In this document: positions 4,551 through 52,532 of the stretch, piece by piece
How positions within the stretch are numbered: the first letter of the stretch is position 1
How the letters are laid out: each line of letters begins with the position of its first letter
Assembly (NCBI RefSeq): GCF_001548235.1
Contig: NZ_AP014938.1
Location: 1,612,001 to 1,676,000, forward strand
DNA length: 64,000 bases
Source of the DNA: Rothia mucilaginosa
GTDB taxonomy: Bacteria > Actinomycetota > Actinomycetes > Actinomycetales > Micrococcaceae
Direction: 5' to 3'
Position numbers and translations under genes: made by a program
The notes under the pieces: generated by a model
The model's input: the letters and a program-made list of their open reading frames with translations, nothing else
Database searches by the model: none
What the model was told of the DNA's origin: nothing

Positions 4551-4551
4551 T

Positions 4552-10194: not shown

Positions 10195-10258
10195 GGGGTG
10201 CGCCAGCGGCGCAAGGCGGAAGATACGTGCCTCAATATGCTCACCTGCCCATTGTAGA

Positions 10259-28275: not shown

Positions 28276-29415
28276 ATGACTTACGGCCTGAACCTGCCCG
28301 AATACCCCTGGGAGGCGCTCGCCCCCTACCGCGCAACCGCAGCCGCCCACCCGGACGGTCCGGTGGACCTGTCCATCGGCACCCCGGTCGACCCTACCCC
28401 GCAGAACATTCGCGAGGCGCTGGCGGCAGCCTCCGACGCACCCGGCTACCCGACCACCCACGGCACCCCCGCCCTGCGTGAGGCTATTGCCGAGTGGTTT
28501 GCCCGCCGCCGCGGCGTGACCGGTCTGAACCCTGACGCGATTATGCCCACGGTTGGTTCGAAGGAGCTCGTGGCGTGGCTGCCGTTCCTGCTGGGTCTGG
28601 GCCCGGGCGATGTGGTCGTGTACCCGCGCGTTGCGTACCCCACCTACGATATGGGTGCCCGTTTTGCCCGCGCCGAGTCTGTGCCCGCCGACAGCCTGGA
28701 CGAGCTGGATGCCGACACCCGCAGCCGTGTGAAGCTGATTTGGGTGAACTCCCCGGCGAACCCGAACGGTGTGGTGCGTACCGTGGAGCAGTTGCGTGAG
28801 GTTGTGGCGCAGGCGCGTGAAATTGATGCCGTGGTGGCATCCGATGAGTGCTACGCTGAGCTCGGTTGGGGTGCCTGGGATGAGGCGCGCGGCGGTCAGC
28901 CGGTGCCGTCCATCCTGGATCCTCGCGTGTGCGATGGCGACTTCACGGGCCTGTTTGCCGTGTATTCGCTGTCGAAGCAGTCGAACCTTGCCGGTTACCG
29001 TGCCGCGTTCATTGCTGGTGCCCCCGAGCTGATGCCGAACCTGATTAATAGCCGCAAGCACGCCGGCATGATTGTGCCCGCCCCCGTGCAGGCTGCCATG
29101 ATGGTGGCGCTGGCTGATGAGGCACACGTGGCGGCGCAGAAGAATCTGTACCGTGCCCGCCGCGAGGTACTGGAAGAGGCGATTACCGCCGCCGGTGGCC
29201 GCATTGAGAATTCTGAGGCTGGCCTGTACCTGTGGACCACTTTCGGTGAGTCCACCTGGGAATCGATTGGCCGCCTGGCGGAGCTGGGTATTATTGCTGG
29301 CCCCGGCGTGTTCTACGGCGAGGACGGCGAAGGCTACGTGCGTATCGCCCTGACCGCCTCCGATGAGGCGGTGGCGAAGGCTGCTGAGCGTCTGAAGGCA
29401 TCTGCCGCTAAGTAG
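28276..29415 (+). CDS. dapC: Succinyldiaminopimelate aminotransferase
   Basis: 379-residue class I/II PLP aminotransferase. The PLP-lysine motif is YSLSKQSNLAGYRAAF; substrate-pocket landmarks are SIGTPVDPTP, YPTTHGTPALREAI and VNSPANPNGVV. This is the actinobacterial DapC form that makes N-succinyl-L,L-diaminopimelate precursors with glutamate as amino donor. dapD and dapE are 6-8 kb away. ATG at 28276 is behind AGGTGACACA; an in-frame ATG at 28240 lacks a ribosome site. Confidence 0.9.
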   Translation: MTYGLNLPEYPWEALAPYRATAAAHPDGPVDLSIGTPVDPTPQNIREALAAASDAPGYPTTHGTPALREAIAEWFARRRGVTGLNPDAIMPTVGSKELVAWLPFLLGLGPGDVVVYPRVAYPTYDMGARFARAESVPADSLDELDADTRSRVKLIWVNSPANPNGVVRTVEQLREVVAQAREIDAVVASDECYAELGWGAWDEARGGQPVPSILDPRVCDGDFTGLFAVYSLSKQSNLAGYRAAFIAGAPELMPNLINSRKHAGMIVPAPVQAAMMVALADEAHVAAQKNLYRARREVLEEAITAAGGRIENSEAGLYLWTTFGESTWESIGRLAELGIIAGPGVFYGEDGEGYVRIALTASDEAVAKAAERLKASAAK

Positions 29416-29446
29416 TCCCGACGGGTCTAACTAGCCCGCATAGCAG

Positions 29447-29488
29447 AAAGCCCCCGCATCCTCCCAAAAGGGGAATGCGGGGGCTTTG
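29447..29488. terminator. Terminator between dapC and gluD
   Basis: AAAGCCCCCGCAT pairs with ATGCGGGGGCTTT between convergent genes. Confidence 0.85.
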
Positions 29489-29534
29489 CCGTATCCGCTG
29501 ATCATCGTTGGCTGAGGGGCCCGAACGAGAAGGG

Positions 29535-30473
29535 CTACTTGCGGTCGCCGGGCAGAACGAACATCTGAACGGTCGGCGGGTTCGGGTTATCCAGAGCGTC
29601 CGGAATCAGGTTTCGGGTCACCTTCGCGGAGGTGCGCGATGCCAGCCTGTCCGTAATGCCGGTTGCTACAGCCGTGAGAACAAAGTTCACCGTCACGAAG
29701 AGTGCCGCCGCCAGAATCAGGGTCTGCAGCACGTTACCGTCACCGGAACCGATACGGCGCGCCGAGGCGAGCAGCTCCGGGTAGGAGATGATGTAACCGA
29801 GTGCGGTGTCCTTCAGAATCACCACGAACTGGCTGAGCATCGAGGGCATCATCGCGGTGAACGCCTGCGGAAGCAGGATCCGAATCAGCGTCTGGGTCGG
29901 GGTCAGACCAATCGCAAGACCCGCCTCGCCCTGGCCGCGAGGAAGCTGCTTCACACCCGAACGCAGCAGCTCAGCAATCACCGAACCGTTGTACAGGGTC
30001 AGACCAATGACCACGGCGATGAAGGGTAGCTGAGCAGGCGGAAGACCGCTGTACTTGCCCAAAAAGAGCCAGAAGAAAATCATCATGATCAGCACCGGCA
30101 CGGCGCGGAAGAACTCCACCACCACGGTGCCGAACCAGCGGATAACGCGGTACTGCGAGAGTCGAGCAATACCGAAGACCACACCGAACGCAACCGAGGT
30201 AACCACCGAAACCGCTGCCGCCGACAGGGTCGAGGCGAGGCCCGGCAGGTAGTAGGAACTCCAGGCGCGGGCGGTGAACAGGTCAGTCCACTTTTCTGCC
30301 TCCAGCTGCCCCTTCTGACCCATCACGGTCAGCACATACACCGCAAATAGTACAAAAAGGACTACCGCAGCAATGTTGAAGATGCGGATACGACGCAGCG
30401 CAATAGGGCCCGGCTCGTCGAAAAGCACCGAAGAAGCGGCGCGGGTGTCATTACTGATAAAAGGGTTTTTCAT
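29535..30473 (-). CDS. gluD: Glutamate ABC transporter permease GluD
   Basis: 312-residue inner-membrane permease, HisM/GlnP type. One N-terminal helix (IAAVVLFVLFAVYVL) precedes the permease core. The EAA-loop region reads LPRGQGEAGLAIGLTPTQTLIRILLPQAF. It pairs with GluC to form the channel. The start overlaps gluC's stop by 4 bp (ATGA arrangement), so the two are translationally coupled. It is last in the order gluA-B-C-D read on the minus strand. Confidence 0.9.
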   Translation of the reverse strand: MKNPFISNDTRAASSVLFDEPGPIALRRIRIFNIAAVVLFVLFAVYVLTVMGQKGQLEAEKWTDLFTARAWSSYYLPGLASTLSAAAVSVVTSVAFGVVFGIARLSQYRVIRWFGTVVVEFFRAVPVLIMMIFFWLFLGKYSGLPPAQLPFIAVVIGLTLYNGSVIAELLRSGVKQLPRGQGEAGLAIGLTPTQTLIRILLPQAFTAMMPSMLSQFVVILKDTALGYIISYPELLASARRIGSGDGNVLQTLILAAALFVTVNFVLTAVATGITDRLASRTSAKVTRNLIPDALDNPNPPTVQMFVLPGDRK

Positions 30474-31153
30474 CGCTTCACCGCCAGCTTACGGGATGAC
30501 CAGGTGGTCAACGCACCAATGGGAACAACAATGATGACGAAGCCCATCGCAAACATGATGAAGATAGCGAGCACCATGTTCGCGTCGAACTCAATCATGG
30601 ATTTCATCAGCCCGGAGGCCTCAGCCACCGACGCTACCGAGGCGACAGTGCTGTTCTTCGTCAACGCAATCAGAGTATTGCCGAGCGGGGTAATGGCACC
30701 GCGTAGAGCCTGAGGGAAAATCACCAGACGGGCGGTGTCGAAGAAACCCAGACCGATAGCGCGTGCCGCCTCAGCCTGACCCTTCGGCACGGTGTTCACA
30801 CCCGAACGGATCGCCTCGCAAATAAACGCCGAATGGTAAATCGACAGGGCAATGACCGCGTACACGAAGAAGTTCGTGTCGAAATCGTGCGAGAAGGAGA
30901 GCTGGAACTGCGTCCACACACCCAAAATGGCGAAAGTCATCATGATGGTGAGCGGAGTATTACGGACAGTATGCACATAGGCGGTGCCCACCCAGCGCAG
31001 GGACGGGACGGGGCTGATGCGCATGAGCGCCAGCACGGTACCGAGGACGAACGAGCCAATAGCCGCCCAGAGGGTCAGCTCAATATTGGTCATGAAGGCG
31101 CCAACCACATCGTACTTGGACAGGAGGGCGCCGAGTTGGTCAAAGAATGACAT
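30470..31153 (-). CDS. gluC: Glutamate ABC transporter permease GluC
   Basis: 227-residue inner-membrane permease. The core contains VLALMRISPVPSLRWVGTAYV and the EAA motif VPKGQAEAARAIGLGFFDTARLVIFPQALR, which contacts the ATPase. It partners GluD. Twenty bases separate it from gluB upstream. Confidence 0.92.
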   Translation of the reverse strand: MSFFDQLGALLSKYDVVGAFMTNIELTLWAAIGSFVLGTVLALMRISPVPSLRWVGTAYVHTVRNTPLTIMMTFAILGVWTQFQLSFSHDFDTNFFVYAVIALSIYHSAFICEAIRSGVNTVPKGQAEAARAIGLGFFDTARLVIFPQALRGAITPLGNTLIALTKNSTVASVASVAEASGLMKSMIEFDANMVLAIFIMFAMGFVIIVVPIGALTTWSSRKLAVKR

Positions 31154-31173
31154 TCGTGAACCTCTCTAGAGGC

Positions 31174-32004
31174 CTAGGCGCAGGAGGTGCCCAGGTGCGG
31201 CGGGTTGGTTTCGGTGTTGTAGTGGTAGCCGGTGCCTTCGGTGTACTTGGTGATGAGTTTCTCCCAGGTGCCATCGGCAACCATCTCGTTGATGGCGTTG
31301 TTCACGGCTTCGCACTTGTCGGTGCCCTTGGGCAGGCCCACGCCGTAGCGTTCGGTCGTGAAGGGGGAGCCGACCACTTTCAGCTTGCCCTTGTTCGCTT
31401 TGGTGGCTGCCAGACCGGCGAGGGTTATGTCGTCGGTGGTGACGGCGTCCACCACGCCGCCGTTGAGGGCGACCACGCAGTCGGAGTAGCTGTTCTGCTT
31501 GACTAGGTTCACGTTCTTGGCGAACTTGTCCTGCACCTTCTGGGCGCTGGTGGAGCCGGTCACGGAGCAGAGGTTCTTGCCGTTGAGGTCGTCGGGGCCG
31601 TGAATATCGGTGTTATCGGCACGCACGAGCAGGTCCTGACCAGCCGTGTAGTAGGGGCCGGCGAAGTCCACGGTCTTCTTGCGGCTTTCAGAGATGGAGT
31701 AGGTCGCAAAAATCATGTCTACCTGACCAGTGTTGAGCATGTTTTCGCGGTTAGCGGCGGGGGATTCTACGAACTCAATCTGCTCTTCGGAGTAGCCGAG
31801 CTTGCCGGCGACGTAGCGTGCCACCTCCACGTCGAAACCGGTGTAGGTGTTGCCGTCCTGGTAACCGAGGCCGGGCTGGTCTACTTTGATGCCGATGCGG
31901 ATCTTGTGGTCGCTGTCTGCGCTGGAGCATCCGGCGAGGACGCCGGTCAGAGCGAGGGAAGCTGCTGCGGCGAGTGCCGCGAGCCTACGTGAATATTTTT
32001 GCAT
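31174..32004 (-). CDS. gluB: Glutamate-binding lipoprotein GluB
   Basis: 276 residues. The signal peptide ends in the lipobox LAGC with lipidated Cys26, anchoring the receptor on the outer face of the membrane. The family 3 solute-binding fold follows (GFDVEVARYVAGKLGY, FATYSISESRKKTVDFAGPYY). It captures glutamate, possibly aspartate, for GluCD. ATG at 32004 lies behind a GGAGGGACCGAC site. Confidence 0.92.
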   Translation of the reverse strand: MQKYSRRLAALAAAASLALTGVLAGCSSADSDHKIRIGIKVDQPGLGYQDGNTYTGFDVEVARYVAGKLGYSEEQIEFVESPAANRENMLNTGQVDMIFATYSISESRKKTVDFAGPYYTAGQDLLVRADNTDIHGPDDLNGKNLCSVTGSTSAQKVQDKFAKNVNLVKQNSYSDCVVALNGGVVDAVTTDDITLAGLAATKANKGKLKVVGSPFTTERYGVGLPKGTDKCEAVNNAINEMVADGTWEKLITKYTEGTGYHYNTETNPPHLGTSCA

Positions 32005-32019
32005 GTCGGTCCCTCCGCT

Positions 32020-32784
32020 TTAGTGGTTGATGATCTTGGAGAGGAAGTCCTTGGCGCGCTCGCTCTTCGGGTTGGTGAAGAACTCGTCCGGGTGCGCCTC
32101 TTCGATGATTTCGCCGTCGGCAAGGAAGACGATGCGGTCTGCCGCCTTGCGGGCAAAACCCATCTCGTGGGTCACCACGATCATGGTCATGCCTTCCCTC
32201 GCGAGGGAGACCATAGTGTCGAGCACCTCGTTGACCATTTCGGGGTCGAGCGCGCTGGTGGGTTCGTCGAAGAGCATGACCTTGGGCTTCATGGCGAGTG
32301 CACGGGCGATGGCGACGCGCTGCTGCTGACCGCCGGAAAGCTCTGCGGGCATTTTGTGCACCTGGGAATCCACACCAACCTTCGCGAGCAGGTTCATGGC
32401 TTCTGCTTCTGCCTCTGACTTGGACATTTTGCGGATTCGGCGGGGTCCAAGGGTTACGTTATCGAGGATGTTCTTGTGCGCGAAGAGGTTGTATGACTGG
32501 AAGACCATGCCGACTTCGGCGCGGAGCTTGGCGAGTGCGCGGCCTTCTTCGGGTAGTTCTTGTCCGTCAATGGTGATGGATCCGCTGGTGATAGTTTCGA
32601 GGCGGTTGATGGTTCGGCAGAGGGTGGATTTGCCGGAACCGGAGGGGCCGAGGAGGACGACGACCTCACCTTTTCCCACGGAAAGGTTGATGTTCTTCAG
32701 AACGTGGTTGGTGCCGTAGTACTTGTTGACGTTGGCGATTTCGATGAGGTTTTTCTGCGCTTCGGGAGCTGCCTGTGCGGACAT
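32020..32784 (-). CDS. gluA: Glutamate ABC transporter ATPase GluA
   Basis: 254-residue cytoplasmic ATPase that powers GluBCD. Walker A is GPSGSGKST, the ABC signature is LSGGQQQR, Walker B is [12 protein letters not shown] and the H loop is [12 protein letters not shown] at 32784 follows AAAGGG with proper spacing; the frame's GTG at 32799 overlaps that site and is rejected. First gene of the gluABCD operon. Confidence 0.93.
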
Positions 32785-33087
32785 TTTGAACCCTTTCACG
32801 TGAGGTGCGTCTATGATGCGGGTTGTCTGTATGCTGAGCTTTCAGCTTACGCCTCAGGCGGTTTCCTGTCTGCAAAATATTCACTTTACTGGGTAAGCAA
32901 TGTGAATTTTTAAGCACGAATGCATAGTTATAGTATTTTTGACGTAAAAATATGGGTAAAAAACACCCCATCTTCACAAAAGGCTTTGACTAGGGAATAT
33001 ATCCTTCTCCTTCTCAACGCACTCACGAGGTGTCAAACGCCTTTGGGGAGGTAGTCACGAATTGGTAAAAATTTCGAAAAAAGCGCA
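32785..33087 (-). promoter_or_regulatory. Promoter region of gluABCD
   Basis: AT-rich spacer between galE and gluA. On the minus strand TATAAC with upstream AT-rich tracts is a candidate -10. AATTCAC and GTGAATATT form an imperfect inverted pair around 32875-32910 that could bind a regulator. No coding potential seen. Confidence 0.4.
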
Positions 33088-34173: not shown

Positions 34174-34398
34174 GATGTCCTTTCGGGCTTTATATATCCG
34201 GAAAAAGTGCTCCGGATGGGGGACAAAAGCTGTTGAGCTGTATCTAATGGTACAGCCGCGCACGGGGTGTAAGTACTGCGGGACACTGTGCGCTTGTGCA
34301 CTCTGGTGTGAGCATGTGGGAGGCGTTATTTAGGTGTGTCGACACTCGCCTTTGCCCAGCGCCTGAATCCGCGTATTAGCTGATTTCTGAGTCGACCT

Positions 34399-35283
34399 CT
34401 AATCCCACCAGAAATACCACTGGCGGCTCTGGTGAATAAACTCCGTCAGCTGCTCAAAATCCTCAAAAACCTGGAACGGAAGATCGGAACAGAATGCGAA
34501 TTGCTCGACCGCCAGATTCTTCGCCTCGACCGGGTCGGTGACGGGGCGTTCCACCAGAAACTCTAGGCAGTCAGCACCGTCAAGAGCCGCCGGGATGGCA
34601 CCGTACTTTTCACGCCAATAGTGGGTGAACGCCAGCTGCGTTTCAGCGTCCGGGCAGTCATTCCAGCCGCCGAAGGGCAGGTACGCGGGAATATCGGCGG
34701 GGTCATCGGTCGGAATCTGCAGCAGGAGCATCTCGCCTTTCTCCTCTTCATCCAGGAGCTCGTAGCAGAGTAGGGCAGAAAGAGTCGGGGCCTCATCTTC
34801 GGGCTCCTCATCGGGCAGAAAATCGGAGCTCATAAACTCGTCGACAAGCTCGTTGAGGTTGAAGTCGTCCGGGTCGTCCTCGCTAGTATCTTCGCCATCG
34901 TCGGCAACCCGGCGCAGCTGCTGGGCAATGACTGCGCTGCCGTATTCTTCGGCGGAGGCGCCACCCCGGGCGGTACGGTAACGCTGCAGGACGGCACGAG
35001 TGTAGGCGCTCACCTGCTCGGGGGTCAGAGTCTCAACATCGTCAATGATGTCGTGCTCAAGGGACACCGCGATAACCATGCTTTCAAGCACCGTATCGTT
35101 CAGGTTTAGGAAGAAGGGGACGAACCCCTCCGCGCGCCCCAGCTTAGCCAACTCATCGTAACGAGCCATGGCATCAGCGGCAGGAGCGCCCATTGGAATA
35201 CGCTCGTGCGGGTAGGGGAAAAGGCGCGTAAAGTGCCGGTAGGTTTCGCTCATCGTCGACTCTGACTTAGTTGATTCAGGCAT
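34399..35283 (-). CDS. DUF4253-domain protein
   Basis: 294 residues, cytoplasmic. The C-terminal ~110 residues carry the DUF4253 pattern: YLPFGGWNDCPDAETQL, HYWREKYGAIP, LEFLVERPVTDPVEA and the terminal SRQWYFWWD. The N-terminal half is acidic with a run DDGEDTSEDDPDDF and has no named domain. Such proteins are common in actinobacteria and have no established function; some relatives occur near toxin-immunity loci, but no such gene is adjacent here. ATG at 35283 is behind GAGAGGAATTCAG. Confidence 0.8.
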   Translation of the reverse strand: MPESTKSESTMSETYRHFTRLFPYPHERIPMGAPAADAMARYDELAKLGRAEGFVPFFLNLNDTVLESMVIAVSLEHDIIDDVETLTPEQVSAYTRAVLQRYRTARGGASAEEYGSAVIAQQLRRVADDGEDTSEDDPDDFNLNELVDEFMSSDFLPDEEPEDEAPTLSALLCYELLDEEEKGEMLLLQIPTDDPADIPAYLPFGGWNDCPDAETQLAFTHYWREKYGAIPAALDGADCLEFLVERPVTDPVEAKNLAVEQFAFCSDLPFQVFEDFEQLTEFIHQSRQWYFWWD

Positions 35284-35456
35284 CTGAATTCCTCTCTGAA
35301 CTGTACAAGTGGTCAGTCATGGCGGGTACGCTGTACCCGGTACTACCAGCCTAGCGAAAGCCCGAGCGTCCCGCCCTGAAAACGGTCATCGTAGCCGCCG
35401 CGGATTCGCGCCCAGCCTGTAAGAGCGGCGGACGAGGGAACACCGGGCACAGAAAA

Positions 35457-44058: not shown

Positions 44059-45051
44059 ATGACTTCTAACCTGCCGAATATTCCCTCGACCCCGCCTTCT
44101 TCATATCTGGCGTCGCGCCTGGCGCAGGCTCAGGGCAAGCCCCTGCCCGCCGGTGAGGCAATCGCTTCCTTCGTCCGTCACGATGATGCGCTCGCCGCTT
44201 TTGATGTGCTCAGCGAGCAGGATTATCCGGTTACGGCGCTGTACCTGGTCAATGACGGTATCCGCCAGGTGGAGTACCCGGTACAGCCCGGTTATGGTCG
44301 TGCCCTGATTTCTTCGGCGATTCAGGGTGCGTCGATGGGCCTGGTGTTTTCGGTGCTGTTGACGCTGACCGGTGACTCTTTTACGTCGGTGGCACTAAAG
44401 TACGTGCCGCTGTCGGTGGTGGTGTTTGTGCTGTGGCAGATGTTCATTCTGCGCCGCGGCAGGGGTGTTCGTTACCCGATGCGTACCGAGGCGATTCCCT
44501 CGCGCACCGTGATGTACGCCCTGCCGGAGTACGCTCAGGATGCGCGCCGCGTGCTGGGTGCCCACCCTCGCTTCTCGGCGGCGGTTGCGGCTGCGCGTGC
44601 GGCGGCTGCCCCGGAAGCTTCGCAGGCTCGTGCAGCTCAGAGCACCGTCTCGATGAATGGCGCACCGGTTCCGACTGGCGCACCTAAGGCTCCCTCGTAC
44701 CGTGCGCAGGCGGGTAGCCAGCCGGCGCCGAACCAGAACCTACCCGAGCGTGATACGACCGCGCAGAACGCGGTGGCTCAGAGCGCGGCGCAGAACATGC
44801 CGGCACCGGTTGCCCCCGCTCAGCCCGCTCAGCCCGCTCAGCCTGCTGAACAGGAACCGACCAGCACTGAACAGGCAAGTACCGGCCAGGCGACCGCTCA
44901 GAAGTCAGATACGCAGAAGCGCCCGGCTCAGCGGTACGGTCTGCGCGTGGATGACCCGGAAGAATACGCGAAGCTGATTCAGCCCAAGCCGCAGCGTCCG
45001 ACTCCGCGCCCGCAGGGCCTGCACGATAAGTCCTCGCAGGACTCCGAATAA
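44059..45051 (+). CDS. General stress protein-like membrane protein with disordered tail
   Basis: 330 residues. The N-terminal ~60 residues carry the general-stress (YflT/17M) pattern IASFVRHDDALAAFDVLSEQDYPVTALYLV. Two helices follow (ISSAIQGASMGLVFSVLLTL and YVPLSVVVFVLWQMFIL), separated by a short loop. The C-terminal half is Ala/Gln/Pro low complexity with AQPAQPAQPAEQ. I start at ATG 44059 behind TAGGAGCC. Function unknown; annotation reflects domain resemblance. Confidence 0.7.
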   Translation: MTSNLPNIPSTPPSSYLASRLAQAQGKPLPAGEAIASFVRHDDALAAFDVLSEQDYPVTALYLVNDGIRQVEYPVQPGYGRALISSAIQGASMGLVFSVLLTLTGDSFTSVALKYVPLSVVVFVLWQMFILRRGRGVRYPMRTEAIPSRTVMYALPEYAQDARRVLGAHPRFSAAVAAARAAAAPEASQARAAQSTVSMNGAPVPTGAPKAPSYRAQAGSQPAPNQNLPERDTTAQNAVAQSAAQNMPAPVAPAQPAQPAQPAEQEPTSTEQASTGQATAQKSDTQKRPAQRYGLRVDDPEEYAKLIQPKPQRPTPRPQGLHDKSSQDSE

Positions 45052-45126
45052 CCGAACCCACAACGGCGGTAGCCACCCACAACAGCGGGAAACAGGCATA
45101 GAAGATACGCAGCGTAGAAGATACGC

Positions 45127-45163
45127 GAAGGCCCCTCACCGAACGAATCGGTGAGGGGCCTTC
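45127..45163. terminator. Terminator between the stress-protein gene and pepP
   Basis: GAAGGCCCCTCACCG pairs with CGGTGAGGGGCCTTC around a 7-nt loop, between convergent genes. Just upstream TAGAAGATACGC occurs twice at 16-bp spacing. Confidence 0.85.
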
Positions 45164-45216
45164 GCTATGCACATACAACCGGCACTAACCGGTGTTAGTG
45201 GCGTGAAGAGTCAGGC

Positions 45217-46746
45217 TTACTTCGCCAGCTTCGCCATCCACTCCTCGATGCCCTCAACGGTGCGCGGCAGCGCAGCGGAGAGGTTCACGTTGCCGTCCTC
45301 GGTGCAGAGCACGTCGTCCTCAAGGCGGATACCGATACCGCGGTATTCCTCGGGGATAGACATGTCCTCTTCCTTGAAGTACAGTGCCGGCTCAATGGTG
45401 AAGACCATGCCCGGCTCCAGTTCAGCCCACATGTACAGTTCAGCCTTCGCCTGCGCGCAGTCGTGCACGTCCAGGCCCAGGTGGTGGCTGGTGCCGTGCG
45501 GCATCCAGCGGCGGTGCTGACCGCCCTCAATGGTGAGGGAAACCTCGGCAGAAACCGGCAGCAAGCCCCACTCTTCCAGACGGTGAGCCAGAACCTCCAT
45601 CGCGGCGTCGTGCAGTTCGTGGAACTTACGGCCCGGCTTAGCCACAGCGAATGCGGCGTCAGCAGCCTCCAGCACAGCGTTGTAGACCTTCGCCTGAACC
45701 TCGGTGAACTTACCGTTCACGGGGAAGGTGCGGGTCACGTCTGCGGTGTACAGGGTGTCGTCCTCAACGCCTGCGTCCAGCAGCAGCAGCTTGCCGTCAT
45801 CGACGGTGCCGTTGTTGCGGATCCAGTGCAGGATGGTTGCGTTGTTACCGCACGCTGCGATGGTGTCGTAGCCCAGGTCGTTACCGTCGGTACGTGCCAC
45901 GGAGAAGAACGCAGTCTCAACGACGCGCTCACCGCGGTGGTGTGCAACAGCCTTCGGCAGGGAGCGAATGACCTCTTCGAAGCCCTTGACGGTCAGGTCA
46001 ACGGAACGCTGCAGGTTCTCAATCTCGATAGCGTCCTTAATCAGGCGAGCCTCGGAGAGAGCCACAGCCAGTTCGGAGTCCAGCTTGTCAGCCTGCTCCA
46101 GCTCCACGCCGGTGTTGTAGCGGGAAGTGTCAACCAGAGCGTCAACAGCCGGGTCAACGTTGCGGACCAGGCGGATATTCACGCCGCCCAGGCCCTGGTT
46201 GCCGGCGTTCTTGGTGATAGCAACCTCAAGCTCGGACAGGTCGCGGGTACGCAGACCGTAACGCTCGGAGAACTCCTTCAGGGTGGGGCGGGGGCCAACC
46301 CAGAACTCGCCGTAGCGTGCATCCGCGTAGAACTCTGCGGTGTCGCGGCCAGCCAGCGGACGGAAGTACAGGGTGACCTCGTGGTTGGAGCCGTTGTCGC
46401 CGGTACCCTCTTCGACGGGCTCGAAGATCAGCACAGCGTCAGGCTCGTGGTCGATGCCCAGGCCGGTCTGGTGCGCAAACGCCGAGTGGGGGCGGAAGCG
46501 GTAGTCGCAGTCGTTGGAGCGGACCTTCAGCGGGCCTGCGGGCAGGACGAGGCGCTCGCCGGGGAATGCCTTGGAGATCTTGGCGCGGCGCTCAGCGGCG
46601 TAGTCTGCTACGGGCTCGCGGGTGTAGCCGTCATCTTCGGCAGGTGCCCAGTTTGCGGCAATGAATTCGGTGAACGCAGACGCCTTAGGGGTGCTGCGGT
46701 GGTCAGTCTTCTGAGCTTCGGTGCTCTTCTCATTGTTCTCAGTCAT
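45217..46746 (-). CDS. pepP: Xaa-Pro aminopeptidase (aminopeptidase P)
   Basis: 509-residue cytoplasmic metallopeptidase (M24B) that cleaves the residue before proline. The C-terminal pita-bread domain has the metal ligands: LLDAGVEDDTLYTADVTRTFP (two Asp), HGTSHHLGLDVHD (His), EPGMVFTIEPALYF (Glu) and GIRLEDDVL (Glu). The N-terminal creatinase-like domain is present. Length and motif order are normal. Single gene. Confidence 0.93.
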   Translation of the reverse strand: MTENNEKSTEAQKTDHRSTPKASAFTEFIAANWAPAEDDGYTREPVADYAAERRAKISKAFPGERLVLPAGPLKVRSNDCDYRFRPHSAFAHQTGLGIDHEPDAVLIFEPVEEGTGDNGSNHEVTLYFRPLAGRDTAEFYADARYGEFWVGPRPTLKEFSERYGLRTRDLSELEVAITKNAGNQGLGGVNIRLVRNVDPAVDALVDTSRYNTGVELEQADKLDSELAVALSEARLIKDAIEIENLQRSVDLTVKGFEEVIRSLPKAVAHHRGERVVETAFFSVARTDGNDLGYDTIAACGNNATILHWIRNNGTVDDGKLLLLDAGVEDDTLYTADVTRTFPVNGKFTEVQAKVYNAVLEAADAAFAVAKPGRKFHELHDAAMEVLAHRLEEWGLLPVSAEVSLTIEGGQHRRWMPHGTSHHLGLDVHDCAQAKAELYMWAELEPGMVFTIEPALYFKEEDMSIPEEYRGIGIRLEDDVLCTEDGNVNLSAALPRTVEGIEEWMAKLAK

Positions 46747-46962
46747 GGGTTAATCATAGCCTCTTCATTACAGGTGGGCAGGTGTTTTAGCGCTTTTGAC
46801 CATAAGAGCGGGCGCGGTGGGGCAGAATATATCTTTGACCTGCGACCGGGTACCCGATATTGCGCCGCCGATATTGGTAGGGTTGAATCAGAAGAGTAGA
46901 TGATATGCCTTAAAACCCCGCTGAGGTGGCGACGAACTAGCAGGGGCGGGGAAGGAGAGAAG

Positions 46963-47937
46963 ATGACGCAGACAGAACACCGAAATAGTGCACCGCAAAA
47001 TACTGCGCAGCAGGTACCGCAGCCCGCTGAATCGGGCGCGCCTGAAAACCTGAACCCTGCCGGGCGCTACGATCTGCATATTCACTCCGCTATTTCTGAC
47101 GGCACGCAGAGCCTGACCGAGCTGGTGCCGCTGATTGCTCGCGCCGGGTTGGCGGGTTTCGCGCTCACTGATCACGATACGACGGCCGGGTGGGCGCAGG
47201 CGGCTCAGCTGGCGGATGAGCACGGTCTGGATTTTCTGCCGGGTGCCGAGTTCTCCTGCCGTTACCGGTACACCGACGGTGAGGGCCGTGCGCGCACGAA
47301 GACTATTCATCTGCTCGCTTATGGTTTTGACCCGGTGGGTTCGGAGTTGGCGCGCCGTGTGGAGGCGATTCGTGCCAGCCGTGAGGGCCGTGCGCAGGCT
47401 ATTGTGGGCCGTCTTGCCGCTGACTACCCGCTGACCTGGGATGACGTGTTGGCTCAGGTGGGGGAGGGGAACACGGCGGTGGGCCGCCCCCATATTGCTG
47501 ATGCGCTGGTTGCTGCCGGCGTGGTTGCTGACCGTTCTGAGGCTTTTGCGAAGCTGCTGTACACGGGCAGCCCCTACTATGTGCCGCAGCAGGCACTGGA
47601 TCCGTTGGAGGCGGTGCGTCTGGTGCGTGAGGCTGGGGGTGTGCCGGTGATTGCGCATCCGATGAGTACGATGCGTGGGCCCGCGTTGAGCCTGGAGTAC
47701 CTGGGCTTGATGGTGGACGCTGGCCTGGCGGGCGTGGAGGTGTATCACCGTGAGAACTCCCCGGAGGACCGGGCGCGTCTGCTGGAGTTCATTGAGCGTC
47801 AGCGCGCGGCGGGCCGTGAGATGCTGGTGACGGGTTCGAGTGATTATCACGGTGCGGGTAAGCCGAACCTGCTGGGTGAGAATACGACGGATGCGGCGAC
47901 GGTGGCGCGTATCCGCGAGCTACTGGCAACTCAGTAG
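46963..47937 (+). CDS. PHP-domain phosphoesterase
   Basis: 324 residues. The polymerase-and-histidinol-phosphatase fold is shown by YDLHIHSAISDGTQS, ALTDHDTTAGW, GAEFSCRY, VIAHPMS and GSSDYHG, which together supply the metal-binding His and Asp residues. The closest described relatives are 3',5'-nucleoside bisphosphate phosphatases (YciV/RNase AM type). A ~35-residue disordered N-terminus precedes the domain. ATG at 46963 follows AAGGAGAGAAG; earlier in-frame codons are non-coding. Confidence 0.88.
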   Translation: MTQTEHRNSAPQNTAQQVPQPAESGAPENLNPAGRYDLHIHSAISDGTQSLTELVPLIARAGLAGFALTDHDTTAGWAQAAQLADEHGLDFLPGAEFSCRYRYTDGEGRARTKTIHLLAYGFDPVGSELARRVEAIRASREGRAQAIVGRLAADYPLTWDDVLAQVGEGNTAVGRPHIADALVAAGVVADRSEAFAKLLYTGSPYYVPQQALDPLEAVRLVREAGGVPVIAHPMSTMRGPALSLEYLGLMVDAGLAGVEVYHRENSPEDRARLLEFIERQRAAGREMLVTGSSDYHGAGKPNLLGENTTDAATVARIRELLATQ

Positions 47938-47957
47938 TAAGACCCAGTAGTAAGACG
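47932..47957 (+). repeat. 13-bp tandem duplication over the PHP gene stop
   Basis: CAGTAGTAAGACC is followed directly by CAGTAGTAAGACG; the first copy contains the TAG stop. Confidence 0.85.
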
Positions 47958-47966
47958 AAAGAGTGC

Positions 47967-47997
47967 GGGGCGGGTTCCTAACTAAGGAACCCGCCCC
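47967..47997 (+). terminator. Terminator of the PHP gene, part of the inverted-repeat arm
   Basis: 13-bp stem GGGGCGGGTTCCT with a 5-nt loop, then ATTCTTTTGTTTT. Mirrored at 52493-52522. Confidence 0.85.
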
Positions 47998-48086
47998 ATT
48001 CTTTTGTTTTCACCTCATTGCATATTCTTTAAATCTCTACCTGAAGGTTAGGATTTTTGATACGCTGAGAACGTTCCACTCATGAG

Positions 48087-48107
48087 GGTGCACAAAGATT
48101 GTGCCCC
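48087..48107 (+). promoter_or_regulatory. Leader hairpin before the SLH-like gene
   Basis: GGTGCACAA-AGA-TTGTGCCCC, one mismatch short of perfect. The mirrored copy at the other arm is perfect. It lies ~10 nt upstream of the AAGGAG ribosome site, so it could affect mRNA stability or translation of both SLH-like genes. Confidence 0.5.
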
Positions 48108-48127
48108 CCTATTTTGAAGGAGCTATG

Positions 48128-48952
48128 ATGCTTCGACAATTATTCGCCCGTCCTACGAAGCGGGCTATCCAGGCTGGCGGCGCTGTACTCTTGGCTGGTG
48201 CCATGGTGTGCGGCAGTGTTCCGGCGTATGCCACCGGGCATTTGAAGCCTCACGAGGTGACCCCTATTGTGCAACCGGATGAACCGGCAGTGACCTGTAA
48301 CGACCGCGCAGAGTATGAGTATTATCGGCAAGATGGCGAGTTGGGGCGTCGCGTTATCTTTAGTTGGGCACAGTGTGTTGGTCTGATTTCTGAGCGTCAG
48401 AAGTACCAAATGGTCAAGAAAGATAGTGTTATTTCTCGCGGCCAGTTTGTGGAGTATCTATACCGTCTGTCAGGTTCTCCCGAGGTGAAGAATCTTCCGA
48501 CTCAGTCTCCGTATGGTGATATCAAGACTGATGATCCGCGTTTTCCTGTGGTGATGTGGGCTCGTCAGCGGGGCATTACCTGGGGTTGGAGTGATGGGAA
48601 TTTCCATTACGATACCCCTGCTAGTGAGGCTGCTACTGCCTTGATGGTGTATCGATTGGCGGGTAGTCCAAACGTAACGGTAGAAGTAGACGATCCTAAT
48701 GCCTATTTCCTATATACTCCTTGGAAGGAAAAATGGCCGAATATGCCCTATAATTCGGAGCTTCATAAGGCATACACCTGGTTATACTATGGTCTTCAGA
48801 ATCCAAATAATAAAGATTCTGTCGAGAACGTATCGTATCGACAGCATGGTATCGTATCACCTAATGATGAATTTGAGTGGTTGACTTACGCTACGTATGA
48901 GCAGGCCTTTGAAGTGATTCGTCTGGCAGATAAATCTTTCAAATTTAAATAA
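48128..48952 (+). CDS. Secreted SLH-like surface protein A
   Basis: 274 residues. A signal peptide (MLRQLFARPTKRAIQAGGAV, then LLAGAMVCGSVPAYA) ends near residue 38. The mature part holds an S-layer-homology-like stretch: SRGQFVEYLYRLSGSP, YGDIKTDDPRFPVVMWARQ and GITWGWSDGNFHYDTPAS, then ALMVYRLAGSP. SLH domains usually tether proteins to wall polymers. The C-terminal ~95 residues diverge sharply from the paralogue at 51539, although WPNMPYxSELHKAY is shared. ATG 48128 is the second of two adjacent ATGs behind AAGGAG. It ends 53 bp from the beta-helix gene, tail to tail. Confidence 0.7.
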   Translation: MLRQLFARPTKRAIQAGGAVLLAGAMVCGSVPAYATGHLKPHEVTPIVQPDEPAVTCNDRAEYEYYRQDGELGRRVIFSWAQCVGLISERQKYQMVKKDSVISRGQFVEYLYRLSGSPEVKNLPTQSPYGDIKTDDPRFPVVMWARQRGITWGWSDGNFHYDTPASEAATALMVYRLAGSPNVTVEVDDPNAYFLYTPWKEKWPNMPYNSELHKAYTWLYYGLQNPNNKDSVENVSYRQHGIVSPNDEFEWLTYATYEQAFEVIRLADKSFKFK

Positions 48953-48959
48953 GAAACGT

Positions 48960-48993
48960 ATCCCCGCTTATGTATCAATACATAAGCGGGGAT
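48960..48993. terminator. Bidirectional terminator, SLH-like A / beta-helix gene
   Basis: ATCCCCGCTTATGTAT pairs with ATACATAAGCGGGGAT across a short loop between the convergent genes. Confidence 0.85.
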
Positions 48994-49005
48994 ATGTTTA
49001 TGAAT

Positions 49006-50670
49006 TTATTCCACAACTATATATTCTTTTTTATTGGAAGTTCCCACTGGAGTCTCAGTAGATTTATAGACATACTGATTAATTTCAATCTTGTAGGGTG
49101 GGTTCAGGGAATTTTTAATAGAAAACTTCCATTTATCGTTCAGAACCTTGGGTTTAGGTTTGTTATTGTCTTCGTAGTCCATGTGGCATTCGTCGTATGC
49201 GTTTGCTCCAATAATATTCAAACGCCTAACACTACCTTCAAGATAGAAGCCCCACAGTGAAGCGAGGATTCTTTCTAGGGGTACTTCTTGGCTTGGCCCG
49301 TAGGGGTTGTCTGAGCGTACTCCTGTAAAGGTGCAGTCGCTAGCCCATGAGCTGATATACCAGTTTGCTGCCTCGTGGTTATGTGCTGGCTTTGAGACTG
49401 CGTCGTGCCAGCTGGAGGACTCACCGATACAGCCTACATAGTTATTCCGCGGCATGAGGGCGAACCATCCGTGGCCGCCATTCTCTTGAGCCGTGCATCC
49501 TTGAAAGAGGTTACGCGTTCCGGCGACATACCATCCAGCACCGGCCTTGGCAGTATATTGATCGTCGGACTGGTCCTTTTTCCGCGTTACGTAGATAGAA
49601 TTTTTTTGTATAGAGCGACGGTTGTACCAGCTGGTTGACCCAAAAAATTTGCATTGGGAGGCGTAGATTTCAATTCCGGCGTAGTTTTTCCCTGAAAGGT
49701 TGGCATCAGAGATATCTACTGTAAGGAATTTATTGTCTGCGCCACCAGGATTATTGTCATCTATCCTGCGCAACGGATGACCGACAGGTTTGCCAACCAG
49801 CAAGCCTTGACGCAAAGACTTGCGGACACGGATTTTATCAACTTTCATACCGCGGTCATGAAGCCCCAAAATCGCAACACCCATATCTACATCCCAAATT
49901 TCTAGGTTAGAGAGGGAAGGAACAGCCTCAGGGTCATTAGGCTTACCCCTAAACTCAGTATGCAGAATAACCCCTGCCACATGGGCTAGCGGTGCCCTAG
50001 TATGCGTATTATCCCTAAGTTGATCTACGTTGATATGCCCTTTTTGAGGGCTCGTGCGAATCCACATATCACGCACTCCGAAACGCATCGGACGGTTATC
50101 TGTCACCTTCATAGATGTCCGCTCCTGATAAGTTCCCGTATGGAAAACACCGAAACATTCATCTCGATTTTCACGAACTGCTTCATCAAGCTTATCTGTG
50201 GGCGTCGCAATAATTCGGGTGGACATTCCATGACCGAAAAACTCCACCTTATCGAGCAAGTGAATGAAGGGGTGCGACACCTTGTAAATACCGGCAGGTA
50301 GCTCAATTGACCCTCCACCGAGCCAATAGAGCCGCTCCGCCAGCATATTCAGCTGATCGGTGCAGTCTTCTACACCCGTGGGGTCTACGCAGTAATCCAG
50401 AACATTAACGTGAAGGCCGTTCTTCGCAAGATTATGGACTGTGCGTGCCCTCGCTTCGGTAGTGTACGTGAGGTATTGCAGACGCGTACGGAACTCGTCT
50501 AGCCGCTTCGTTGGATTCTCTACCCATTCCGGGGCAGGAGTCATAAACTCCTCGGGCTTATTTGCTTGCTCCGCATGGGCTGGGGAGAAAGCTGAGACTC
50601 CTGCAGTGGTTGCGGCAAGAGCTCCTCCTACCAAAAGGGCGCGCCGCGATGGCGCATGATATTCAGACAT
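49006..50670 (-). CDS. Tat-exported beta-helix (pectate-lyase-like) surface protein
   Basis: 554 residues. The N-terminus PSRRALLVGGALAATTAGVS is a twin-arginine signal, with cleavage near AHA. The mature protein has a GGGSIELPAGIYKVS motif of the pectate-lyase/tail-spike superfamily and repeated short beta-strand runs typical of a right-handed beta-helix. I see no complete catalytic set, so adhesion or glycan binding is as likely as an enzyme. The C-terminal ~160 residues split into a segment nearly identical in protein to the fragment at 50946 (QENGGHGWFALMPRN... to NPY) and a divergent tail. It sits inside an inverted-repeat locus and is unusually AT-rich toward its 3' end. Confidence 0.7.
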   Translation of the reverse strand: MSEYHAPSRRALLVGGALAATTAGVSAFSPAHAEQANKPEEFMTPAPEWVENPTKRLDEFRTRLQYLTYTTEARARTVHNLAKNGLHVNVLDYCVDPTGVEDCTDQLNMLAERLYWLGGGSIELPAGIYKVSHPFIHLLDKVEFFGHGMSTRIIATPTDKLDEAVRENRDECFGVFHTGTYQERTSMKVTDNRPMRFGVRDMWIRTSPQKGHINVDQLRDNTHTRAPLAHVAGVILHTEFRGKPNDPEAVPSLSNLEIWDVDMGVAILGLHDRGMKVDKIRVRKSLRQGLLVGKPVGHPLRRIDDNNPGGADNKFLTVDISDANLSGKNYAGIEIYASQCKFFGSTSWYNRRSIQKNSIYVTRKKDQSDDQYTAKAGAGWYVAGTRNLFQGCTAQENGGHGWFALMPRNNYVGCIGESSSWHDAVSKPAHNHEAANWYISSWASDCTFTGVRSDNPYGPSQEVPLERILASLWGFYLEGSVRRLNIIGANAYDECHMDYEDNNKPKPKVLNDKWKFSIKNSLNPPYKIEINQYVYKSTETPVGTSNKKEYIVVE

Positions 50671-50945
50671 CGATGTCTCCTAGAGGTGAGTGAATTATTT
50701 GCCCTTCATCACGACGAAGTGATGTTAGTGGACGGATACCTTCTGCACGTAGCACCGTGCTGCGCTGCAGAAGATGCCTCTAGTGTGTATCGCTTTTTCT
50801 TCCCTTTGCAAGAAATTTTATGATTTTTACATAAATTCGTTTCAAGTTTCATGTAAATATTTCAATTTTCTTCAATATATTGATAAAGCCTATGAAATCT
50901 ATTACTTTAAAGATTTTTAACATTGCACTGAAGCTGAAGGAGAGA
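50671..50945. promoter_or_regulatory. Promoter region of the beta-helix gene
   Basis: 275 bp, AT-rich at 50780-50945. It must contain the promoter of the minus-strand beta-helix gene. On the plus strand it leads into the cassette fragment without an obvious strong promoter. Because it lies between the two homologous 3' segments, an inversion would carry it along with the gene's 5' end. Confidence 0.45.
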
Positions 50946-51491
50946 ATGAAACTGTGTCGGTTTGCTCTGTATCTTGGCGACAGAAAGGGGCGTGCTACTC
51001 AAGAGAATGGTGGCCACGGATGGTTTGCCCTCATGCCGCGGAATAACTATGTGGGCTGTATCGGTGAGTCCTCCAGTTGGCATGACGCAGTCTCAAAGCC
51101 AGCACATAACCATGAGGCAGCAAACTGGTATATCAGCTCATGGGCTAGCGACTGCACTTTCACGGGAGTACGTTCTGATAATCCCTACGAAGATAGTGAC
51201 AATCCAGAGGATAAATTTTCGCTTGATACGGCTCTCGCAGCACGATGGGGGTTCTATATTGAAGGAGGAGCCGGACGCCTTAACATCATCGGGGCAAATG
51301 CTTTCGACACCTGTCATCAATCTAGTAAGCAACGTACTAGTGACCAGATAAAATTGCTGACAAATAACTGGATCCTACGCGTTGATAAACCGCTATATAA
51401 GTATGCCAGAATTGAAGTTAATCACTACTCATATAATCTTGGAATTAAAGAGGAAGAAACTCCTGAGAAGAAGCTCTCTATAACCGTATAA
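50946..51491 (+). pseudogene. Orphan C-terminal cassette of the beta-helix gene (silent copy)
   Basis: 181 codons from ATG 50946, with AAGGAG only a few bases upstream. There is no signal peptide and no N-terminal domain. From QENGGHGWFALM to RSDNPY, 63 codons are identical in protein to the beta-helix gene while differing at 13 third positions. After that the tail shares only patches (WGFYxEG, RLNIIGANAxDxCH). Homology stops abruptly just before QENGG. It may be a truncated relic or a stored alternative C-terminus; its opposite orientation to the full gene favours the latter. It could still be translated as a short cytoplasmic protein. Confidence 0.65.
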
Positions 51492-51506
51492 GAGCGAAAA
51501 GTAGCT

Positions 51507-51533
51507 GTGCCCCGCATTTATTCTGCGGGGCAC
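51507..51533. terminator. Bidirectional terminator, cassette / SLH-like B
   Basis: GTGCCCCGCA pairs with TGCGGGGCAC across TTTATTC. It mirrors the position of the terminator at 48960, although the sequence differs. Confidence 0.85.
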
Positions 51534-51538
51534 TATGA

Positions 51539-52360
51539 TTACTTGTCGAATGCTCCCAGAGAGTCAGCGACTCGCAAAGCTGAAAAAGCTAAATCGTATT
51601 CTGCGAAGGTGAACCAACTATTTTTCCCTGATTGTGCATTGAAATTCATTCCGAATCGAACATTATAATATTCGTTGATGTATCCTTCTTTCTCTAAAGA
51701 AATCTTTTGGGTAATCCACAAATAAGCCTTATGCAGCTCTGAACCGTAAGGCATATTGGGCCATTCTTTATCCCAGGGGTCGCTCCATGCTTCCCTGTGA
51801 TATTCAGGGACATTCACGTCCGGCTTACCAGCCAAACGGTACAGCATGAGTGCAATCGTGGAATCGCTGGCGGGGGTATCGTAATGGAAATTCCCATCAC
51901 TCCAACCCCACGTAATACCCCGCTCACGAGCCCACATCACCACAGGAAAACGCGGATCATCAGTCTTAATATCACCATACGGAGACTGCCCCGGAAGATT
52001 CTTCACCTCGGGAGAACCCGACAGACGATACAAATACTCCACAAACTGCCCGCGAGAGATAACTGGAGATTTAATAAATAGCTGGTGTTTTTGATATTCG
52101 GTAATTAGACCAGCACACTCAGCCCAGTCGAATACAAGTTCCTTTGCTAGAGCTGTATTTGCCATATAACGGAAAAGAGCCCTATCAGTGCAGGTTACTG
52201 CGGGTTCGTTTGGTTGTGCGATAGGTGTAGCCTGACGGGGCTTAACCGACCCAATGGCATACGCCGGCACGCTACCGCACACCATGGCGCCTGCCAGCAG
52301 CACGGCACCACCGGTCTGGATAGCCCGCTTCGTGGGGCGGGTGAATAATTGTCGAAGCAT
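51539..52360 (-). CDS. Secreted SLH-like surface protein B
   Basis: 273 residues, paralogue of the protein at 48128 in mirror orientation. The signal peptide and the SLH-like block are almost the same (SRGQFVEYLYRLSGSP, YGDIKTDDPRFPVVMWARE, GITWGWSDGNFHYDTPAS). The C-terminal third is different (DVNVPEYHREAWSDPWDKE, then WPNMPYGSELHKAY and a new end). This tail-to-tail arrangement with the orphan beta-helix cassette repeats the SLH-A/beta-helix arrangement. ATG 52360 is the second of two adjacent ATGs behind AAGGAG. Confidence 0.7.
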   Translation of the reverse strand: MLRQLFTRPTKRAIQTGGAVLLAGAMVCGSVPAYAIGSVKPRQATPIAQPNEPAVTCTDRALFRYMANTALAKELVFDWAECAGLITEYQKHQLFIKSPVISRGQFVEYLYRLSGSPEVKNLPGQSPYGDIKTDDPRFPVVMWARERGITWGWSDGNFHYDTPASDSTIALMLYRLAGKPDVNVPEYHREAWSDPWDKEWPNMPYGSELHKAYLWITQKISLEKEGYINEYYNVRFGMNFNAQSGKNSWFTFAEYDLAFSALRVADSLGAFDK

Positions 52361-52532
52361 CATAGCTCCTTCACAAACAGGGGGTGCACAATCTTTGTGC
52401 ACCCTCATGAGTAGGACGTTCTCAGCGTATCAAAAATCCTAACCTTCAGGTAGAGATTTAAGGAATATGCAATGGGGTGAAAACAAAAGAATGGGGCGGG
52501 TTCCTAATCGGGAACCCGCCCCACACTCTTAA
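51825..52532 (-). repeat. Right arm of the ~0.7-kb inverted repeat
   Basis: Inverted counterpart of 47958-48675: terminator hairpin, promoter region, leader hairpin (perfect here, GGTGCACAA-AGA-TTGTGCACC), ribosome site and conserved 5' part of the SLH-like gene. Coding divergence is mostly synonymous. Confidence 0.85.
52493..52522 (-). terminator. Terminator of the methyltransferase gene, mirrored copy
   Basis: GGGGCGGGTTCC-taatc-GGGAACCCGCCCC; same hairpin as at 47967 but ending the minus-strand methyltransferase unit. Confidence 0.8.

Follow-up and report, generated by a model that had tools for sequence, protein, structure and literature searches.

A Rothia mucilaginosa locus with inverted SLH-like and beta-helix genes that probably diversifies surface proteins through exchangeable tail cassettes

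In the G segment of phage Mu, a constant 5' part is joined to alternative tail-fibre C-termini by inversion, with a serine invertase flipping the tails. In the Campylobacter fetus sapA and Lactobacillus acidophilus slpA/slpB loci, an expressed and a silent surface-protein gene face opposite ways on either side of an invertible segment, and whole genes or promoters are exchanged. At the mba/UU172 locus of Ureaplasma, inversion at repeats in or beside surface-protein genes leads to alternating expression, and chimeric genes have been proposed (PMC3047005); these are membrane proteins, the inversion is called site-specific, and the abstract of that paper describes no layout of constant starts with tail-to-tail cassettes. 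In the account of PMC7394358, hsdS loci hold inverted copies in which conserved blocks lie before the variable 5' part and between the variable 5' and 3' parts, and inversion at these coding repeats yields new 5'-3' combinations. Switching of SpnIII in Streptococcus pneumoniae is described as partly controlled by its own recombinase, CreX, but it persists without CreX and does not need RecA (PMC6620402); the SpnIII repeats are given as 15, 85 and 333 bp in that paper and printed as 15, 85 and 33 in PMC7394358. A dedicated invertase is therefore not needed by every inversion-driven locus, and the RecA independence of SpnIII cautions against assuming a RecA route in Rothia.

The locus described here lies in a 64,000-nt stretch of R. 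mucilaginosa DNA (the window), in which two inverted SLH-like genes flank one beta-helix (BH) gene and an inverted second BH copy that lacks the 5' part. It resembles the inverting hsdS loci of Type I restriction-modification systems in having inverted coding blocks around variable parts. Unlike them, it carries genes whose products appear to be exported to the surface, it nests one inverted pair inside another, unrelated pair, with the tails of both in one cassette, and its switching is a prediction. It differs from sapA and slpA/slpB in that C-terminal tails of two gene families would be exchanged, and from Mu in that the 5' part would flip and the genome has no serine recombinase match. By analogy, it may work like inverting hsdS loci, and it would be new as a variant with surface-protein tails of two gene families. 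With a probability of about 0.72, we consider it a surface-protein diversification locus of the R. mucilaginosa group, in which exchangeable tail cassettes would recombine in conserved blocks.

By blastn, the two arms (47959-48665 and 51826-52530, inverted) were found to be 80% identical, and ungapped alignment of the repeats gave pieces of 94% (47985-48116/52374-52505), 78% (48104-48297/52191-52384) and 82% (48365-48675/51816-52126) identity. Both analyses confirm the mirror-image layout claimed in an earlier note on this DNA. Identity between the arms, taken in 40-bp steps, is uneven and follows the order conserved leader, variable head, conserved SLH block, variable tail. It is 78-95% in the leader and signal-peptide block of the left arm (47959..48238, + strand; right counterpart 52250..52532, - strand, left edge approximate), 45-68% in the variable head of the left gene (48239..48438, +), 88-97% in the SLH block (48439-48598) and 33-78% in the tail past the block. 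The SLH heads vary as well as the tails, and the variable head had been overlooked in the earlier note. The left gene, SLH1 (48128..48952, +), is an ORF of head type 1 and tail type 1 with an apparent signal peptide by eye; SLH2 (51539..52363, -) is an ORF of head type 2 and tail type 2. In Pfam, both scored below the PF00395 (SLH) gathering score of 20.8, at 19.2 and 18.5 bits, respectively, and the proteins are therefore termed SLH-like; a predicted SLH structure (pLDDT 41) was not used. Their conserved middle blocks (48428..48613, +, a putative recombination site, and 51878..52063, -) are 186 bp long, with 13 mismatches and a longest exact run of 42. Terminator-like hairpins mark the outer edge of the left arm, 3' of a PHP-domain gene (47967..47997, +), and the right outer edge, on the methyltransferase side (52491..52524, -). 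Each of the two tail-to-tail junctions holds one more, i.e., between the SLH1 and BH tails (48959..48994, -, also found as an inverted repeat) and between BH tail B and the SLH2 tail (51507..51533, -). Rfam matches to mir-3012 and mir-1277 at the 48941-49010 hairpin were far below the gathering scores and were rejected as chance matches to the terminator hairpin. The tails have a low G+C.

The BH gene (49006..50670, -; an ORF of 554 aa) is the copy that has the 5' part. The second copy (50998..51491, +) comprises the conserved block and tail B within an ORF at 50880-51491 in which homology begins at 50998; it lacks a signal peptide as well as the 5' part and is presumably silent, leaving only one BH copy expressed. 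The conserved blocks of the expressed copy (49299..49490, -, the putative inversion site) and of the silent copy (50998..51189, +) align gap-free over 192 bp at 93% identity, and had been placed correctly to within about 10 bases beforehand (~49308-49496 and ~51000-51190). All 13 differences fall at third codon positions (dN 0.0, dS 0.44). In our judgement, a 192-bp, 93% inverted repeat within two coding sequences is far beyond chance. From the geometry of the repeats, inversion at the BH blocks would flip 49491..50997, i.e., the BH 5' part, the upstream region and the flank of the silent copy. The A+T-rich region upstream of BH, together with the 5' flank of the silent copy, spans 50671..50997 (GC 0.388); a sigma-70 scan found no sigma-70-like site there, and the scan itself was uninformative (4 sites versus 6.6 in shuffled sequence).

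The BH protein matched PF12708 in Pfam at 16.6 bits, under the gathering score of 27, and many of its relatives at 34-50% identity, among the matches listed, carry this family. The best Foldseek matches of its predicted structure (pLDDT 77.4, pTM 0.80) were the AlgE4 A-module, the HK620 tailspike and the PfbA adhesin (TM by query length about 0.3-0.45; for AlgE4, E 4e-10 and TM 0.40), and the model points to a right-handed, pectate-lyase-like beta-helix. As to a possible phage origin of BH, a phage collection yielded one record, at 35% identity, though the relative P0063 is named from Caudoviricetes, and many relatives among the matches listed lie on 38-40-kb contigs that look phage-sized.

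A BH protein search scored 7999 candidates and gave 406 matches, of which 120 were listed; the closest 24 (P0001-P0024) were used. Together with the window's BH, 24 of these 25 proteins have a readable tail, P0022 being frame-shifted, and the tails belong to the A-family (7), B (13), C (3) and D (1). Tail B, which is that of the window's silent copy, is thus found on 13 BH proteins, full-length or long, among the closest 24 of 406 matches; the 24 counted in this class include the start-less fragments P0021, P0023 and P0024 and the late-starting P0007 and P0020. Greedy 70% clustering merged the A, A' and most D tails, which a C-terminal motif split; P0023, cut short, was assigned to the A-family by eye. 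Among 15 5'-truncated long-tail copies, the window's included, two carry A-family tails, three B, five C, four D and one E. Since A-family, B, C and D tails occur on both kinds of copy, cassettes have moved from one copy to another at a different place. The N-parts of P0003 (tail A) and P0012/P0014 (tail B) are 2% apart, and their tails 64%. N-part and tail are partly linked (Mantel r 0.498, n=21, 1 of 2000 permutations as high); the tail comparison covered 44 proteins, with the tail motif missing in P0022 and P0138 and short tails in P0122, P0131 and P0136, the last of which has a terminator-type flank and is also frame-shifted in its tail. The flank of the silent copy leads into tail B in the window, P0121 and P0122, into tail D in P0123 and, in another reading frame, probably into tail A in P0129 (13-residue match, E 0.004), a 5'-truncated copy that carries tail A, the window's expressed tail. 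Both alternative joints appear to exist in nature, in different strains: full-length BH with tail A (window, P0003) or tail B (13 proteins), and truncated copies with B (window, P0121) or A (P0129). Two sets of static BH paralogues elsewhere in the genome have tails 82-99% and N-parts 87-98.5% identical (6 comparisons), versus 39-100% and 88-98% for 36 pairs of nine locus alleles chosen from the 24. Scans of genome contigs with the BH protein and with alignment A1, and one viral-contig scan, gave no relative confirmed by tblastn. Alignment A1 comprised 15 of the 24 close BH matches, A2 27 of 63 SLH matches and A3 35 of the 120 listed.

Heads and tails were typed in 58 of 65 SLH sequences, three others having no block motif and four no head motif. 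All four head/tail combinations were found, i.e., H1T1 and H2T2 in the window, H1T2 in P0141 and H2T1 in P0144, the longest contigs of the latter two being only 1.5 and 9.0 kb. SLH1 and P0181 have exactly identical heads and tails 56% apart, and SLH1 and P0144 share a tail (0.9% apart) with heads 44% apart. Similarly, P0181 (longest contig 70 kb) differs from P0174 (433 kb) by 58% in the tail and not at all in the head, and from P0143 (387 kb) by 0.9% in the tail and 44% in the head. Across 52 of 55 proteins (the window's two and P0139-P0191), the head-tail Mantel r was 0.185, versus 0.733 for head halves and 0.963 for tail halves. SLH heads and tails are almost unlinked; the association that remains is weak, though significant (0 of 1000 permutations as high).

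The left tail-to-tail cassette (48614..49298) consists of the SLH1 tail, a terminator and BH tail A, and the right one (51190..51877) of BH tail B, a terminator and the SLH2 tail. The left cassette has 0 differences in 685 positions from the sister genome G014, whereas the four flanking genes compared are only 95-98% identical. It lies in a 776-bp identical tract (48548..49323) that ends within the SLH block on one side and within the BH block on the other; a 912-bp identical tract (49880..50791, -) covers the BH 5' half and part of the upstream region. In 55,073 aligned bases of G000 and G014, both single-contig genomes, these two are the sole identical tracts of more than 500 bases, both within the locus, and the next longest measures 329 bases. 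This comparison shows that one cassette has been transferred as a unit. G014 has neither the silent BH copy nor SLH2, its right half being missing apart from an interrupted SLH-tail remnant, and it is therefore unable to invert; in the two genomes found to carry a close expressed BH gene, G000 and G014, this gene has the same orientation (2/2). Besides the architecture, the sequence comparisons document tail exchange in both gene families. The earlier note had proposed such exchange, now supported for BH copies and SLH genes alike, and also the exchange of whole tail-to-tail blocks, for which the 776-bp tract provides one block moved as a single piece. It had named tails evolving as ordinary paralogues as evidence to the contrary; the tails at the locus do not behave so, although the two BH paralogue sets elsewhere do.

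In the mechanism that we propose, constant starts (SLH leader and head, BH 5' part) would combine with exchangeable cassettes, each made of an SLH-like 3' end, a terminator and the facing BH 3' end, and bordered by the SLH and BH blocks, inverted on the two sides. Cassettes would be replaced or exchanged by homologous recombination within the blocks. Inversion between the BH blocks would give the other tail to the BH protein that carries the export signal and make the old tail silent. Inversion between the SLH blocks would exchange the SLH tails of the two heads, and the same blocks would allow incoming DNA from other strains to replace a cassette. As in inversion-driven phase-variable loci, the inverted repeats lie where an inversion would connect alternative parts to a constant, expressed part. 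Inversion within one cell would be the natural route, and the recombination is presumably of a general kind. More tentatively, at a little less than even odds, the locus may be a nested double-inversion switch without a dedicated invertase, two unrelated coding-repeat pairs acting on a shared cassette; SLH-like and beta-helix C-termini would then always change as a matched pair, a linkage known from one shared cassette in two genomes. Each strain could then take four arrangements, and the population as a whole would have a pool of matched tail pairs. The role of the locus may be to vary a protein that binds glycans or acts on them, at the surface or after secretion, against the host, phages or neighbours.

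A possible but unlikely alternative is exchange between strains only, with cassettes replaced by DNA taken up, the inverted second copy an incidental duplicate and no switching within a clone. The identical 776-bp cassette common to G014, itself without an inversion partner, agrees with this, as does the presence of competence-type families in the genome; 10 and 11 of 14 control genomes have these families too, so they say little. Furthermore, some 5'-truncated copies are preceded by sequence that matches the 3' end of the PHP gene, the terminator or both, apparently a deleted form of the locus, and still bear different tails, i.e., A' (P0134), C (P0126-P0128) and D (P0130), so that exchange between strains also happens. 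The sharing of tail families between full-length or long and truncated BH copies, and the solely synonymous differences kept by the silent block, speak against such exchange as the only process, but both are compatible with uptake into either slot. Flipping of the segment by a dedicated site-specific invertase, acting on a short core site in the BH block, is improbable, even though comparable surface switches use site-specific recombination (Ureaplasma, PMC3047005). By eye, a four-residue marker in the BH block takes several forms (KPAH, DKAH, GTAS, KPAR and others) among P0010-P0019, in which the N-part and tail B stay the same, and breakpoints are therefore not at one site. A search of the genome for three recombinase families found no dedicated enzyme, i.e., two tyrosine recombinase matches far from the window, no serine recombinase and no IS110-type match; two tyrosine recombinases are, we assume, the number expected for XerC and XerD.

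Still less probable is that the chimeric proteins are metagenome assembly artefacts at the conserved blocks, which are 186-192 bp long and nearly identical. The strain evidence is mostly predicted proteins, probably metagenomic and clustered at 90%, in which assembly chimeras in conserved blocks are possible; however, the long-contig SLH clusters P0174, P0181 and P0143 show the same shuffling, the BH protein P0014 (95 kb; an R. mucilaginosa protein) bears tail B, and the G000-G014 tracts come from two single-contig genomes. The least probable reading, that the genes are ordinary paralogues from a duplication, with C-termini that diverge fast and a 3' remnant in decay, would suit the low G+C of the tails and the lost right half of G014 with its interrupted remnant, but is already contradicted by the head-tail and cassette data. 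SLH heads are identical with tails 55-63% apart, and the reverse, dN is 0 in the silent BH block, and static BH paralogues behave differently.

R. mucilaginosa is a common oral and airway commensal, and literature searches of open-licence PMC papers turned up no paper on phase or antigenic variation in it. For a diversification locus with exchangeable cassettes, matched-pair reshuffling of two surface proteins, if true, would explain strain differences missed by draft genomes, such as G027, which is broken at both arms. The locus offers a simple test of tail-cassette co-adaptation, and tail blocks traded between gene copies and between strains may let this mouth bacterium keep altering its coat.

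The window spans 1612001-1676000 of contig C1 in G000, a single-contig genome of 2.29 Mb that is probably from Rothia mucilaginosa, the name borne by some of the related proteins. The locus sits between converging PHP-domain and DNA-methyltransferase genes and comprises an SLH-like gene (SLH1, 48128-48952, + strand), a beta-helix gene (BH, 49006-50670, - strand), a second BH copy without the 5' part (50998-51491, + strand) and a further SLH-like gene (SLH2, 51539-52363, - strand). SLH1 and SLH2 are inverted copies of one another and the two BH copies, also inverted, share an ungapped block of 192 bp (93% identity), confirming the mirror-image architecture described in the earlier note. Each SLH arm runs from a conserved leader/signal-peptide region (78-95%) through a variable head (45-68%) and a conserved SLH block (88-97%) to a variable tail (33-78%). 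The BH block mismatches are all at third positions (13/13; dN 0.0, dS 0.44), and the SLH block gave a dN of 0.022 and a dS of 0.278. Because the changes in the BH block are solely synonymous, the second BH copy is unlikely to be a dead 3' remnant. The G+C of the four tail segments was 0.39-0.45, as compared with 0.597 for the window. Neither the SLH match nor the pectate-lyase match reached Pfam cut-offs. The predicted structure of BH is a beta-helix (pLDDT 77, pTM 0.80), with the AlgE4 epimerase module, HK620 tailspike and PfbA adhesin among its best PDB matches, at modest TM-scores. Its N-terminus, MSEYHAPSRRALLVGG, resembles a Tat signal.

Across 52 SLH proteins, head and tail differences gave a Mantel r of 0.185, with values of 0.733 for the two head halves and 0.963 for the two tail halves; a different set of 56 proteins yielded a head-tail r of 0.123. 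Average differences were 2.8% in the conserved middle, 26% in heads and 40% in tails. As judged from these comparisons, SLH heads assort almost independently of SLH tails, their association being weak rather than absent because the residual correlation was significant (0/1000 permutations). With the window's genes denoted H1T1 (SLH1) and H2T2 (SLH2) by head and tail type, both products predicted by SLH-block inversion, H1T2 (P0141) and H2T1 (P0144), exist (longest contigs of 1.5 and 9.0 kb, respectively). Assembly chimeras are a possible concern in these comparisons, but shuffling is also seen in long-contig clusters taken by themselves: the heads of proteins P0174 (433-kb contig) and P0181 (70 kb) are identical although their tails differ by 58%, and P0143 (387-kb contig) and P0181 have a tail in common (0.9%) and heads 44% apart.

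BH tails, typed A to E, were readable in the window's BH and 23 of its 24 close hits; seven of these carry an A-family tail, 13 tail B, three tail C and one tail D. Counting the one in the window, there are 15 5'-truncated copies whose tails are long: two have A-family tails (P0129, P0134), three B, five C, four D (P0123, P0130, P0133, P0137) and one E. Tail B, found in the putatively silent slot of the window, occurs on 13 full-length or long proteins, and tail A, that of the window's BH, is also present, identical throughout, on truncated copy P0129. P0003 (tail A) and P0012 (tail B) differ by 2% in the part preceding the tail (N-part) and by 64% in the tail; the Rothia mucilaginosa protein P0014 (82% identity to BH) bears tail B behind an exported-type N-part. 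The flank of the window's second BH copy is joined to tail B in P0121 and P0122, and to tail D in P0123 (17/17 residues). Its joint with tail A in P0129 is probable, and not more, because the match is of 13 residues in another reading frame (E 0.004). N-part and tail of BH stay partly linked, with a Mantel r of 0.498 (n=21, with tail B in 12/21, many near-identical); controls gave 0.871 and 0.943. Unlike the locus alleles, BH paralogues at two other sites (G000, the window's genome; G014, its sister; G013) are 82-99% identical in tails and 87-98.5% in N-parts.

The left cassette, i.e., the tail-to-tail segment 48614-49298, showed 0/685 differences from G014. Identity to G014 was 95.2% for the PHP gene, 96.3% for the methyltransferase, 98.0% for the peptidase gene, 95.6% for part of the helicase, 92.2% for the BH block beside the cassette and 93.9% for 49491-49900. 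The identical tract (48548-49323, 776 bases) starts within the SLH block and ends within the BH block, and a second (49880-50791, 912 bases) spans the BH 5' half. These are the two longest in 55,073 aligned window bases, the third being 329; when the differences in 45000-50924 were scattered uniformly, none of 5000 trials produced an identical tract longer than 341. The exchange of whole tail-to-tail blocks anticipated in the earlier note is borne out by this one case, in which a cassette has moved as a single unit. Elsewhere, window segments 2933-4426, 9245-10267, 29415-33080 and 34352-35320 lacked a collinear match in the compared G014 stretch and are possibly strain- or species-specific; several off-diagonal matches of 16793-17337 to one G014 stretch suggest tandem repeats.

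Some BH match was found in 11 of 35 genus genomes, a close one (98% or more) in G000 and G014 only. G014 has SLH1 and BH, with 50925-52483 replaced by about 300 bases that contain a stop-interrupted SLH tail piece; its similarity to the tails of P0164 and P0187 is 73%. In G013 (~210 bases between matches) and G006 (~155 bases) the PHP gene lies close to the methyltransferase gene, as it also does in, e.g., G026 and G010. They are 3.3 kb apart in G033, with unrelated genes in the gap; by eye, this gap (about 2013-4573 of stretch L057) encodes a protein that is rich in glycine and apparently exported, together with a small unit of two genes similar to a toxin-antitoxin pair. G027 contigs stop at terminators 77 and 119 bases past these genes, and a BH search of G027 gave no match.

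Related arrays and rearranged forms were also observed. SLH1 had 28 matches in the whole genome; among those listed, 13 lie beyond the window within 27 kb (G000:C1:54704-81350), all on the + strand, in what looks like a large putative SLH surface-protein array. Three more BH paralogues (L052 and L053, G000:C1 1140000-1176000) adjoin SLH-like genes or are at most about 3.3 kb away from them, all on one strand, and the two gene types seem to be recurrent partners. P0135 opens with tail A in antisense (98% over 102 residues) and continues directly with tail C in the forward sense, the back-to-back arrangement of tails that deletion of the BH 5' part would produce. A similar form may be present in P0124 (tail B), whose antisense part is a 10-residue match only (both on contigs of at most 1.6 kb). 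In P0137, tail D follows what appears to be the terminator plus the PHP 3' end in antisense (E 0.001), making this another rearranged form. Apparently frame-shifted BH/SLH alleles from other strains (P0022, P0136, P0192, P0193) may be inactive.

Upstream of P0126 and P0128 lie the PHP 3' end and terminator (E about 1e-7), and upstream of P0127, P0130 and P0134 the terminator portion of that sequence (E 8e-4). Because copies with such flanks carry different tails (C, D and A'), cassettes evidently also pass between strains. ComEC-type and DprA-type families are present in the genome, as in most control genomes. A search of the genome for three recombinase families gave two tyrosine recombinases and no serine recombinase or IS110-type match. 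The SpnIII system is reported to invert at coding repeats of 15-333 bp with no need for RecA, and its own recombinase accounts for switching only in part (PMC6620402); the inversion proposed here would likewise use repeats inside coding sequence. Both cassettes are bordered by one SLH block and one BH block, in orientations that are inverted between the two sides. Given such borders, BH-block inversion would place the alternative tail on the expressed gene, and SLH-block inversion would swap tails between the SLH genes. Taken together, BH and SLH tail assortment and the shared cassette uphold the tail exchange and cassette logic of the earlier interpretation; the data show tail exchange, which may also occur inside one clone, as phase variation.
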